Shown here: in pieces, positions 25,801 to 30,057 of the stretch
Layout of the letters: every line of letters starts with the position of its first letter
Numbering within the stretch: the stretch's first letter is position 1
Source: Lamellibrachia satsuma
Lineage: Eukaryota > Annelida > Polychaeta > Sabellida > Siboglinidae
Length of the DNA stretch: 64,000 nt
Assembly (NCBI GenBank): GCA_033239005.1
Contig: BSQZ01000034.1
Coordinates: forward strand, 3,054,501 to 3,118,500
Direction: 5' to 3'
The notes under the pieces: generated by a model
Databases searched by the model: none
What the model was told of the DNA's origin: nothing
The model's input: only the letters and a program-made list of their open reading frames with translations
Translations under genes and position numbers: made by a program

Positions 25801-28800
25801 TGATGTAACTGTAACTCTAATTTATTGTTTTGAAGTGATGTAATTTTAATTATAATTTATTGTTTTGAAGTAATGTAATTGTAATTCTAATTTATTGTTT
25901 TTAAGCAGTGTAATTGTAATTCTAATTTATTGTTTTTAAGCAATGTAATTATAATTCTGTTTCACCTGGTGATGATGAATTGAACTGTCATGATACTGTG
26001 TAGTTGTAGTTGACAATTGTAAGTGAACTTGACCTTATCCATCAGGCGTGACTCGAGTGTGTCGGTGGATGTGAGAGTGGGCCAGGTGAATGCGACAGAT
26101 GGTGTATTTGTTGCGGCCCGAGTCAACAACAGCGGCTGCACGGCCTTCCTCGCCAAGGGCATCTACTTCTTCCTCCTCTACGATGTCCAGCAGTGGCAGA
26201 TGTCGCATGATCTTGGTAGGTCAAACTAACTTCTTCTTCTCGCGTTTGTTAGTAGTTTAATATTGCAGTCTGTCATTGAACATTCATGGCTCGCCAGACC
26301 CAGCTCTGCAATGCCCGTTTCTCCATTTGGAACGCCGTAGAATGTGCAGGCATTGATGACGTGGTCTGCTGTTTGCTGCCCTGCACTGTATTCACACTTG
26401 GCGCTTTCTGACAGTCCCCAGTTGTACATGTGAGCTTTAAATCAGCCTACTCCCATTCACAAGCAGGTGAATTGAATCCAGCGCAGGGAGTTAGTGATTC
26501 TGTGATGAACTTATGCAGATAAGTTACATTGTCTGCCAGTCATGTGTCCACTTCATTGCCACCAAATTAGGTGTAGTTTGGGCCCAGAGAGTTTGTGATT
26601 TGTTGTGCCTGTTAAATGGACGCCAAGACTTGACTGACTTCAGACATTGGGTGGGTTCTGGCCCCTTGCGACCAGACACAGGGGAACAGGTGGACTTGTT
26701 GTCTGTCTGTGGATAAGTGTGTCAGATCAACATCTCCAGTGTACTACCCAGGTCATCTTACATAATGTTGCCACCTTCTCATAAGGGGTAAAACCCATGG
26801 TTTATTGTCTTAATGTAATATTAAAAATGGTGTAAGATTTCACATGAGAAGAGTGTAGTTTCATAATTATCCTACGAGACCCCCAAAAAGTAGTCTTAAG
26901 CTTCTTTTTACCAAACAGTGACATCACCAGTTTTTTTAGTGACAACGAAACTAATTTGACAGCTGCTGCTGGTTTTATGACGTTTCCATTCATATTTATA
27001 TCATTAGTTTTGATGTGATATAGCAGCATTTTTTGTTGTAGCGCGAACTCAGGCAATCCAATCTGGAGATTACCATCTACAACCCGGGAAATGGTACAAC
27101 ATTGCACTCAAAGTGAATGTAAGTACCACCTTCACTTCAGCCAGTGGTACAACGTAGCACTCAAAGTGAATGTAAGTACCACCTTCACTTCAGCCAACAT
27201 AGCACTCAAAGTGAATGTAAGTACCACCTTCACTTCAGCCAACATAGCACTCAAAGTGAATGTAAGTACCACCTTCACTACAGCCGATGTTACAACGTAG
27301 CACTCATAGTGAATGTAAGTACCACCTTCACTACAGCCAATGTTACAACGTAGCACTCAAAGTGAATGTAAGTACCACCTTCACTTCAGCCAGTTGTACA
27401 ACATAGCACTCAAAGTGAATGTAAGTACCACCTTCACTTCAGCCAATGTTACAACGTAGCACTCATAGTGAATGTAAGTACCACCTTCACTACAGCCAAT
27501 GTTACAACGTAGCACTCAAAGTGAATGTAAGTACCACCTTCACTTCAGCCAGTGGTACAACATAGCACTCAAAGTGAATGTAAGTACCACCTTCACTACA
27601 GCCAATGTTACAACGTAGCACTCATAGTGAATGTAAGTACCACCTTCACTACAGCCAATGTTACAACGTAGCACTCAAAGTGAATGTAAGTACCACCTTC
27701 ACTTCAGCCAGTGGTACAACGTAGCACTCAAAGTGAATGTAAGTACCACCTTCACTACAGCCAATGTTACAACGTAGCACTCAAAGTAAATGTAAGTACC
27801 ACCTTCACTACAGCCAGTGTTACGACGTAGCACTCAAAGTGAATGTAAGTACCACCTTCACTACAGCCAATGTTACAACGTAGCACTCATAGTGAATGTA
27901 AGTACCACCTTCACTACAGCCAGTGTTACAACGTAGCACTCAAAGTGAATGTAAGTACCACCTTCACTTCAGCCAGTGGTACAACATAGCACTCAAAGTG
28001 AATGTAAGTACCACCTTCACTTCAGCCAACATAGCACTCAAAGATAATGTAATTACCACCTTCACTACAGCCAATGTTACAATGTAGCACTCAAGTACCA
28101 CCTTCACTTCAGCCAACATAGCACTCAAAGTAAATGTAAGTACCACCTTCACTTCAGCCAACATAGCACTCAAAGTAAATGTAAGTACCACCTTCACTAC
28201 AGCCAGTGTTACAACGTAGCACTCAAAGTGAATGTAAGTACCACCTTCACTACAGCCAATGTTACAACGTAGCACTCATAGTGAATGTAAGTACCACCTT
28301 CACTACAGCCAGTGTTACAACGTAGCACTCAAAGTGAATGTAAGTACCACCTTCACTTCAGCCAGTGGTACAACATAGCACTCAAAGTGAATGTAAGTAC
28401 CACCTTCACTTCAGCCAACATAGCACTCTAAGATAATGTAAGTACCACCTTCACTACAGCCAATGTTACAATGTAGCACTCAAAGTTAATGTAAGTACCA
28501 CCTTCACTACAGCCAGTGTTACAACGTAGCACTCAAAGTGAATGTAAGTACCACCTTCACTTCAGCCAACATAGCACTCAAAGTAAATGTAAGTACCACC
28601 TTCACTTCAGCCAACATAGCACTCAAAGTAAATGTAAGTACCACCTTCACTACAGCCAATGTTACAACGTAGCACTCAAAGTGAATGTAAGTACCACCTT
28701 CACTACAGCCAATGTTACAACGTAACACTCAAAGTAAATGTAAGTACCACCTTCACTACAGCCAATGGTACAACATAGCACTCAAAGTGAATGTAAGTAC

Positions 28801-30057
28801 CACCTTCACTACAGCCAATGTTACAACGTAGCACCCAAAGTGAATGTAAGTACCACCTTCACTACAGCCAATGTTACAACGTAGCACTCAAAGTGAATGT
28901 AAGTACCACCTTCACTACAGCCAATGTTACGTAGCACTCAAAGTGACGTAGCACTCAAAGTGAATGTAAGTACCACCTTCACTACAGCCAATGTTACAAC
29001 ATAGCACCCAAAGTGAATGTAAGTACCACCTTCACTTCAGCCAACATAGCACTCAAAGTAAATGTAAGTACCACCTTCACTTCAGCCAACATAGCACTCA
29101 AAGTAAATGTAAGTACCACCTTCACTACAGCCAATGTTACAACGTAGCACTCAAAGTGAATGTAAGTACCACCTTCACTTCAGCCAACATAGCACTCAAA
29201 GTAAATGTAAGTACCACCTTCACTTCAGCCAACATAGCACTCAAAGTAAATGTAAGTACCACCTTCACTACAGCCAATGTTACAACGTAGCACTCAAAGT
29301 GAATGTAAGTACCACCTTCACTACAGCCAATGTTACAACGTAGCACTCAAAGTGAATGTAAGTACCACCTTCACTACAGCCAATGGTACAAAAAAGTGAA
29401 TCTGAGGAACAAACATTCCTGCTGTTACGAAAGTTTCCCTATGACACTCGTGACCTCTACATCAGTTATGGTCCTTCTGAAATGTCTCTAGATGACAGTC
29501 GATAGACTGATAGGACATACATACATGACCTTCCTGCAGTCTGTGCTTATATGCGGCTTGTACAATTGTAATTTTGTAGCACAGTGTTTAGACCATTAGA
29601 CTCTCAATCGAGAGTTGAATCTTTGCATCATCTTGCTGCCATTTCGAAGCTTGGACAGTTTCATTCACTCCAAATTGCCTCAGTTCATTCAGCTATATAA
29701 ATGAGTACCTGAATAGTATTTGCACAGTAATTGCAATGTGGTTGAATGCTTCCCAGAGAAATTGAGTTGTTGGAATGAACAGGTCTGCCAGGGGTGGAAT
29801 GTTAAAGGCTTTGTGGTTGTCCTAAGGACTGTATATCACACTGTATGAGAACTGACTTTTTAATTATGCATGTTTGTTTCTGAGTCTGAATGACTTGAGT
29901 GGTGTTGATTTTACAGGGAAACTTCACGGCAGCCAGCATCGATGGCAAGACAGTGTTCAGCAAGGAGGTTCCCGTCAGAAACAAGAATGGATTCGCCGCA
30001 ATAGGAACAGACAGTCTTGGGCTGGCAGACTTCGACAACTTTGTACTTGCAGCTTAA
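13808..30057 (+). CDS. GALC: galactocerebrosidase (galactosylceramidase), 18 coding exons, 680 aa
   Basis: Lysosomal GH59 enzyme that removes galactose from galactosylceramide and psychosine. Exons: 13808-13954, 15314-15382, 15697-15760, 16124-16212, 17079-17240, 17628-17666, 18370-18509, 18953-19070, 19489-19526, 20271-20395, 20897-21036, 22420-22512, 23013-23102, 23471-23615, 24535-24730, 26046-26215, 27042-27118, 29917-30057. All introns are GT-AG, phases join without a break, and the total is 2043 nt; human GALC is 685 aa. Visible features: signal peptide about residues 1-22; [13 protein letters not shown] at the barrel start; the acid/base Glu in IWNE (E181); the nucleophile Glu in LWASED (E260); TGRKGS; and the C-terminal lectin-like part with IGDYNW and FDNF. 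The exon 14 acceptor (gtcacaag) is weak. The first in-frame ATG of exon 1 is used. Intron 17 starts inside a large tandem array copying its own 5' splice site. Confidence 0.96.
16255..16435. repeat. interspersed repeat family 2 (copy)
   Basis: Contains TTTTTTAATCAGCAGGATC, CCAAATGACACCACTAG and the block TCTAGAGA. The same blocks in the same order recur at 50600-50905; the terminal part recurs at 31370-31515. Lies in GALC intron 4. Class not determined. Confidence 0.6.
16441..16548. repeat. (TA)n microsatellite
   Basis: About 108 bp of uninterrupted TA in GALC intron 4. Confidence 0.98.
16733..16852. repeat. (TA)n pair with perfect inverted-repeat arms
   Basis: After a first TA run, AAAACTATTTGAAAATATA is followed by about 30 bp of TA and then its reverse complement TATATTTTCAAATAGTTTT. 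The whole forms a palindrome of about 65 bp able to form a cruciform. The surrounding 16570-16720 repeats AAAATAGTTTTATC-like blocks. Confidence 0.85.
19800..20110 (+). repeat. interspersed repeat family 1 (copy)
   Basis: Contains AGTATCCACTGCA(A/G)C(A/G)TG, CTCGTTTGT(A/G)CAA and TTTTGGTGAAATCATCAAAC. These recur at 45890-46290, and in reverse at 32285-32420, 40430-40600 and 50395-50560. Lies in GALC intron 9. Confidence 0.65.
20425..20640 (-). repeat. SINE-like element (3' body, minus)
   Basis: The reverse complement contains AAAAGCTGTTG, ACCAGGTGTCA and AAAGTGAAAGATCCCACAC. The same body is in SINE copies at 30880 and 42985 (…AGTAAAAGATCCCA…). Lies in GALC intron 10. Confidence 0.65.
23103..23410. 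repeat. tandem duplication beginning at GALC exon 13 donor
   Basis: The first copy starts at the donor GTACTGTCAGTGCATGC (23103), the second at 23264 (GTACTGTGAGTGCATGC), giving a period of about 161 bp. Both continue through GCATGCAGATCC(C/A)CATG and ACAGATACACATACTAACAC. The sequence is rich in CA and GCATG. Confidence 0.85.
24830..25330 (+). repeat. interspersed repeat family 1 with internal 27-bp array
   Basis: The left part has TATCCACTATGACGTGCTAGCTCGTT, matching family 1. From 25044 to about 25290 a 27-bp unit (CACTTAAGCT(A/G)TTCACACACTACATAT) is repeated about 9-10 times. The right end (ACACATCT…ATGAACC) again matches the single-copy version at 46200-46265. The array therefore arose inside the element. 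Lies in GALC intron 15. Confidence 0.75.
25660..25960. repeat. two adjacent AT-rich minisatellites
   Basis: A 22-bp unit (TAATTGAGCTTCTGATGTGC) is repeated about 4 times at 25685-25770. It is followed by a 36-bp unit (GTAATTGTAATTCTAATTTA TTGTTTT…) repeated about 5 times to 25950. GALC intron 15. Confidence 0.85.
27091..29390 (+). repeat. splice-junction minisatellite spanning GALC exon 17/intron 17
   Basis: The unit is about 53 bp, with a 43-44-bp short form lacking a 10-bp TGTTACAACG-type block. It begins with the last coding bases of exon 17 (GGTACAACATTGCACTCAAAG), crosses the donor GTGAAT|GTAAGT, and ends with ACCACCTTCACT(T/A)CAGCCA. About 43 copies of GTAAGTACC are present. Only the first lies at the end of an open exon. 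The rest lie within intron 17. The last unit (29370-29395) is degenerate, with the donor destroyed (GTGAATCTGAG). Confidence 0.97.
29570..29835 (+). repeat. tRNA-derived SINE (copy 1)
   Basis: The head CATTAGACTCTCAATCGAGAG and the body (GAAGCTTGGACAGTTT, CAGCTATATAAATGAGTACCTG, TTCCCAGAGAA, GAATGAACAGGTCTG) match copy 2 at 38283-38620 in the same order. Lies in GALC intron 17. Confidence 0.75.

Follow-up and report, generated by a model that had tools for sequence, protein, structure and literature searches.

A minisatellite across the exon 17/intron 17 boundary of a tubeworm GALC gene carries 43 identical copies of a 5' splice site

The human IFI6 (6-16) gene reportedly contains a minisatellite with multiple splice donors, as said to have been described by Turri in 1995. 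Indeed, IFI6 uses downstream units of a minisatellite repeat as donors (PMC4526556; this and the other sources given by PMC number are cited from excerpts). In amphioxus, tandem repeats lying across exon-intron boundaries, termed mirages, are found in the Adh3 and globin genes, with units of 10-72 bp in Adh3 and of about 150-160 bp in the globin genes, many bearing AG/GT signals; these repeats are unstable in length, leave regular splicing undisturbed and have been suggested to give rise to new introns (PMC3087553). Troponin C was subsequently added to the mirages and PGBD5 compared with them, regular splicing again being undisturbed (PMC3902484). Intron gain via tandem duplication of segments that contain a splice site has also been discussed (PMC3087553, PMC2812944), while in earthworm metallothionein, minisatellites are reported in the first intron, with the passages concerned making no mention of a repeated splice site. 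Here, a minisatellite that carries 43 copies of a 5' splice site is described in the GALC (galactosylceramidase) gene of the vestimentiferan (siboglinid) tubeworm Lamellibrachia satsuma. The gene lies in a stretch of 64,000 nucleotides (assembly GCA_033239005.1, contig BSQZ01000034.1, positions 3,054,501 to 3,118,500, forward strand), referred to below as the window, to which all coordinates refer unless stated otherwise.

In the window, GALC could be modeled with 17 GT-AG introns and no internal stops, the exon boundaries being set by homology and reading frame and the start codon being putative. When open reading frame pieces from the window were joined by hand and used as query, a galactocerebrosidase chain in PDB, which we take to be the mouse enzyme, was matched at 7e-128. 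Among the 120 protein matches listed, the best was to L. satsuma GALC (partial, 608 amino acids; 99% identity), followed by that of Ridgeia piscesae (85% identity), with the remaining 118, many of them from molluscs, showing 47-54% identity. The features of the gene and of the array are as follows, with a slash marking each splice junction.

13808..30057, + strand: GALC coding region, 18 exons, 680 amino acids, GT-AG model
27042..27118, + strand: GALC exon 17, 77 nt; acceptor TTGTTGTAG/CGC, 3' end ...AAAGTGAAT/GTAAGT
27090..29381, + strand: 45-unit minisatellite, mostly of 53- and 45-bp units, with 43 AATGTAAGT donors and 45 CACT(T/A)CAG elements
27090..27142, + strand: first unit (copy 1, the presumed founder), formed by 29 nt at the 3' end of exon 17 and the adjoining 24 nt of intron 17
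27119..27124, + strand: first donor, which yields the conserved protein according to the gene model and the proteins of relatives
27155..27157, + strand: TAG stop reached when donor 1 is skipped, the 13th codon past the donor, with 12 codons being added
28028..28114, + strand: units 19 and 20, the only two of the 45 units lacking GTAAGT (GTAATT; deletion)
29382..29410, + strand: degenerate terminal (46th) copy, in which CTGAGG replaces the donor; extent judged by eye
29917..30057, + strand: GALC exon 18, the last exon; acceptor TTTTACAG/GGA

Tandem Repeats Finder called the array at 27090-29391, with a period of 53 and 45.2 copies. When the array was split at its CAGCC anchor, 31 units of 53 bp, 12 of 45 bp and one each of 42 and 67 bp were obtained, with 27 distinct unit types being found among the 45. 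The donor 9-mer (AATGTAAGT, AAT/GTAAGT) is identical in all 43 copies that contain it. The 43 GTAAGT motifs of the array extend from 27119 to 29358, adjacent donors being separated by 53 nt in 30 of the 42 intervals and by 45 nt in 10, and outside the array, 11 such motifs occur on the + strand of the window. The CACT(T/A)CAG elements contain A at the variable position in 26 cases and T in 19, and at column 14 of the unit, copy 1 has T where the other 44 units have A. A search of the genome with a 161-base query from the start of the array returned at least 17 matches, all within the GALC array, this count being a lower bound given that the search scores the best candidates and skips very common words. 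A preliminary description of this DNA had placed the end of GALC exon 17 here, with a repeat unit straddling the exon-intron boundary and a 5' splice site amplified about 43 times in tandem; the gene model, the 29 + 24 nt make-up of unit 1 and the donor count confirm all of this.

By its structure, the GALC array is of the mirage type, like the arrays of amphioxus. Its units lie across an exon-intron boundary, 43 of the 45 carry a potentially cryptic splice signal in the form of AATGTAAGT, and their lengths, at 42-67 bp, fall within the range reported for mirages. As in IFI6, several donors are found in a single minisatellite. Such an array would have arisen independently in the tubeworm.

Joining exon 17 to exon 18 from the first donor keeps the reading frame (KVN/GNFTAAS), and the annotated proteins of both L. 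satsuma (KVNGNF) and R. piscesae (KVKGNF) read across the boundary as donor 1 predicts. Use of later donors leads to a stop, in support of the earlier proposal that only the first donor yields the normal protein, although the stop, previously placed 11 codons on, is two codons further downstream. For 41 of the 43 donors, the stop would lie at least 50 nt upstream of the last exon junction, this being the usual condition for nonsense-mediated decay.

The strength of the repeated splice signals was considered using a matrix built from the other 16 GALC donors, each of these being scored with itself left out. AATGTAAGT scored 7.76, a value exceeded by just three of the 16 and equaled or exceeded at 0.85% of 3775 GT sites in the remainder of the window. 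The CACT(T/A)CAG elements, scored as acceptors, attained 1.6-1.8 bits, lower than 15 of the 17 GALC acceptors; of the AG sites that the window contains outside the array, 23-25% reach this level. The array donors are accordingly real-looking, while the CACT(T/A)CAG acceptors are unremarkable. The donors had previously been called strong-looking, which scoring bears out, some of the gene's own donors being stronger still; the 3'-splice-site-like CAG said to accompany each donor is present throughout but weak.

The presence of such ladders of donors elsewhere in the genome was considered in 20 loci of 10 kb each, two beside the window and 18 starting at position 2,000,001 of contigs C1-C18. Together with the window, these amount to 264 kb, in which 48 tandem arrays with a period of 10-150 and at least five copies were found, a few of these being simple repeats read at long period; the genome is rich in such arrays. 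GTAAGT is present in most units of three of the 48, namely, the GALC array (43 copies), an array at 6169-6652 of locus L013 (12 copies) and an array in locus L025 (10 copies), the latter lying in a DCC/neogenin gene.

8888-9254 of locus L025 (contig C15, ~2,008,888-2,009,254), - strand: DCC/neogenin last-intron ladder with 10 GTAAGT donors

This second array, unrelated to that of GALC, starts at the native donor of the penultimate exon. That exon ends at 9253 (...DDNMH/GTAAGT), the last exon begins at 8476, and the intervening intron of 776 nt opens with the 10 donors, spaced 35-38 nt apart; as judged by eye, the repeat unit is intron sequence save for about two exon bases. The joined protein, in which the join falls after residue 55, matched Pfam Neogenin_C at 6.5e-18 (residues 5-81 of 87) and, in PDB, a peptide of the netrin receptor DCC at 5e-7, while reading through the first donor leads to a stop after 14 codons. 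One further ladder in 200 kb is a hint as to frequency and not a measure, the range of error being very wide. Still, the earlier statement that few natural loci would present so many competing donors in series should be softened, given this second ladder in 20 sampled loci and the amphioxus mirages, which are of the same kind (PMC3087553). With a looser donor score, 27 array-strand rows were flagged among 44 arrays; those other than GALC and L025 were judged by eye, such that further ladders could be among them.

Other sampled arrays were also inspected by eye. The L013 array has a 37-bp period and no sign of adjoining coding sequence. At 123-609 of locus L024, a 33-bp array of 14.7 copies a short way past an acceptor-like site appears open as GEADTDTVL repeats and resembles a coding minisatellite, while the array at 1909-3793 of locus L026 consists of CAG/GTGATT units with no evident exon.

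In terms of origin, the order of unit types along the GALC array shows block duplications, with the type pair QR occurring four times and the triplet HMN twice. GALC contains three arrays with a period of at least 20 and at least five copies, and by length alone, 0.12 overlaps between their founder units and any of the 17 GALC donors would be expected. The start of an array on a donor therefore needs no special cause. What is remarkable is the size of the array and its probable tolerance.

We consider it probable that the array is a minisatellite born at the boundary, that copy 1 is still the one spliced, and that the array is tolerated rather than having been selected for its donors. In this scenario, a minisatellite would have nucleated where GALC exon 17 meets intron 17 and been enlarged by repeated block duplication, with the working 5' splice site thereby becoming the first of what are seen in the sequence as 43 identical copies. 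Splicing would have stayed at copy 1, as the annotated proteins of the relatives suggest and in keeping with the undisturbed splicing reported for amphioxus mirages (PMC3087553, PMC3902484). Donor 1 may win by being transcribed first and by being paired with its own acceptor across the short 77-nt exon, whereas downstream donors would have no real acceptor close upstream, and products of later donors, on reaching an early stop, would mostly be destroyed by decay. With donor 1 favored and mis-spliced products destroyed, the array could be tolerated without selection for its donors. As such, the array would most likely represent a by-product of repeat expansion in which donor 1 is used and the others are near-silent, with neutrality being taken as the default over a role as decoy or as source of isoforms.

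Several points weigh against this explanation. The L. satsuma and R. piscesae proteins are annotated and possibly predicted gene models, and the comparison was made at the protein level. When two comparable donors compete, the intron-proximal one is taken to be favored, by means that are not known (PMC6002489), which at GALC would indicate the last copy. In local folding predictions, donor 1 showed the lowest accessibility of the 43 under three settings. Finally, across all units, 14 of the 29 exon-derived columns are variable, as compared to two of the 24 intron-derived columns (Fisher p=0.0022), a contrast that simple neutrality does not predict.

The folding predictions also contradict the idea that the first donor is chosen because it is the most open. 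The predicted unit folds take two main forms, and the segment comprising exon 17 and the first units folds with a z of -2.16, three of 200 shuffles being equally good. A conserved hairpin around the donor was likewise considered. The AGTGAA/TTCACT stem is complete in 31 of the 45 units and the GGTAC/GTACC stem in seven; with stems broken in so many units, no conserved structure is claimed.

The contrast between the two halves of the unit persisted when the count was restricted to the 53-bp units, 31 in number (12/29 exon-derived vs. 1/24 intron-derived columns; p=0.003), when copy 1 was left out (11/29 vs. 1/24; p=0.007), when the comparison was confined to the final 45 columns in 44 units, the 42-bp unit being dropped (10/21 vs. 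2/24; p=0.006), and when variants that occur just once were disregarded (9/29 vs. 1/24; p=0.015). After removal of three odd units, the contrast sharpened when any variant was counted (14/29 vs. 1/24; p=0.0005) and weakened when only repeated variants were (6/29 vs. 1/24; p=0.11). In eight control arrays from the window, the lowest p was 0.0178 over any half split chosen post hoc, although these arrays were cut crudely into units and most have fewer units or variants than does the GALC array. Constraint on the intron-derived half of the unit is thus suggested but not proven. Were it real, selection might be maintaining the donors as a platform for the U1 small nuclear ribonucleoprotein (snRNP), for instance in defining the 77-nt exon 17, with the array serving as an intronic enhancer. 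The quoted U1 footprint spans 23 nt upstream and 12 nt downstream (PMC6002489), less than the 45/53-nt donor spacing, such that neighboring donors could be bound simultaneously. Yet not only does the contrast rest on 16 variable columns and weaken under stricter counting, but the nine donor columns considered on their own, again with the three odd units dropped, give 0/9 variable vs. 15/44 others (p=0.047) or, for repeated variants, 0/9 vs. 7/44 (p=0.33), and the 18 columns 3' of the donor are almost as invariant as the donor itself (1/18 variable). Moreover, a search of intron 17 for AATAAA or ATTAAA found neither, leaving U1 no such poly(A) signal to suppress; the idea that U1 shields the transcript from an intronic poly(A) site was rejected on this ground. 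We therefore deem selection for a U1 platform doubtful. A broader proposal, to which we give no more credence, is that donor ladders form a recurrent class of intron starts in the tubeworm genome with selected donors, where serial U1 sites past a short exon would reinforce the first donor rather than compete with it, such that a single product would come from dozens of 5' splice sites identical in sequence.

Slightly less doubtful, but still unlikely, is that the ladder is in use, with several copies serving as donors or within cryptic exons in the array, generating stop-containing isoforms that tune the GALC level or in-frame insertions, as in the human IFI6 minisatellite, where downstream units do serve as donors (PMC4526556). 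The high score of the donors would allow for this, and among 299 acceptor-donor pairs lying 20-400 nt apart within the array, 28 would delimit open in-frame exons, 21 of these being 84 nt long. The acceptor-like CAGs, however, score weakly, and the annotated proteins of the two relatives are normal at the boundary. As for the array being an artefact of assembly, with one or few units in the true genome, tandem arrays are generally known to misassemble easily; yet the 27 distinct unit types among 45, the absence of any N in the window, the assembly itself (a 7-Mb contig in 735 Mb assembled into 279 contigs) and the modest length of the array (2.3 kb, likely falling inside one long read) make this very improbable. 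Tolerance of a boundary-born array remains the favored explanation.

Elsewhere in the window, a 66-bp unit is repeated 21 times at 3495-4888 (98% match), and one reading frame stays open through long parts of this repeat. The last part of this repeat enters a DUF4371-like frame (1.3e-9, with inner repeats omitted from the query), which would fit an amplification of 22 codons from a transposase-like gene. A TPR protein, presumably resembling TTC1, is encoded at 46764-49519 on the + strand, its first frame holding a 33-bp repeat at 46922-47023, and a PWWP-domain protein is encoded at 56833-58533 on the - strand. Judged by eye, long frames at 7523-12102 and 59340-62216 resemble parts of non-long terminal repeat retrotransposons (endonuclease, reverse transcriptase).

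The GALC locus offers an unusually clean natural test of donor choice, with 43 identical donors of which the most distal is the one needed for the enzyme. It also extends boundary duplication of the mirage type from lancelets to annelids, while the second ladder in a small sample suggests that such arrays may be common in this genome. A search of the literature revealed, among the matches listed, no report of a boundary-spanning minisatellite in siboglinids. What is new is the phylum, a copy number above that of the globin mirages and the second ladder in the same genome; the kind of array is already known from amphioxus.

Like the GALC array, amphioxus mirages duplicate an exon-intron boundary in tandem, in the manner of a minisatellite, and many of their units contain splice signals, although they belong to a cephalochordate rather than an annelid. 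The GALC array comprises 45 units, as compared to six and three in two BflGb6 haplotypes, and multiplies a 5' splice site, whereas BflGb6 multiplies a 3' boundary; regular mRNA is reported for the mirages (PMC3087553, PMC3902484). In the intron-gain model, too, the duplicated segment includes a splice site, but no new intron is evident at GALC (PMC3087553, PMC2812944). As in human IFI6, a single minisatellite supplies several donors; there, two units farther downstream function as donors, yielding three mRNAs (PMC4526556), whereas the GALC donors past the first are putative. Closest to hand is the DCC/neogenin ladder of the same genome, where the first of a tandem GTAAGT series is again the exon's own donor and read-through again reaches a stop, yet where 10 donors set 35-38 nt apart in a nearly all-intron unit take the place of the 43 donors of GALC and their unit of exon and intron.

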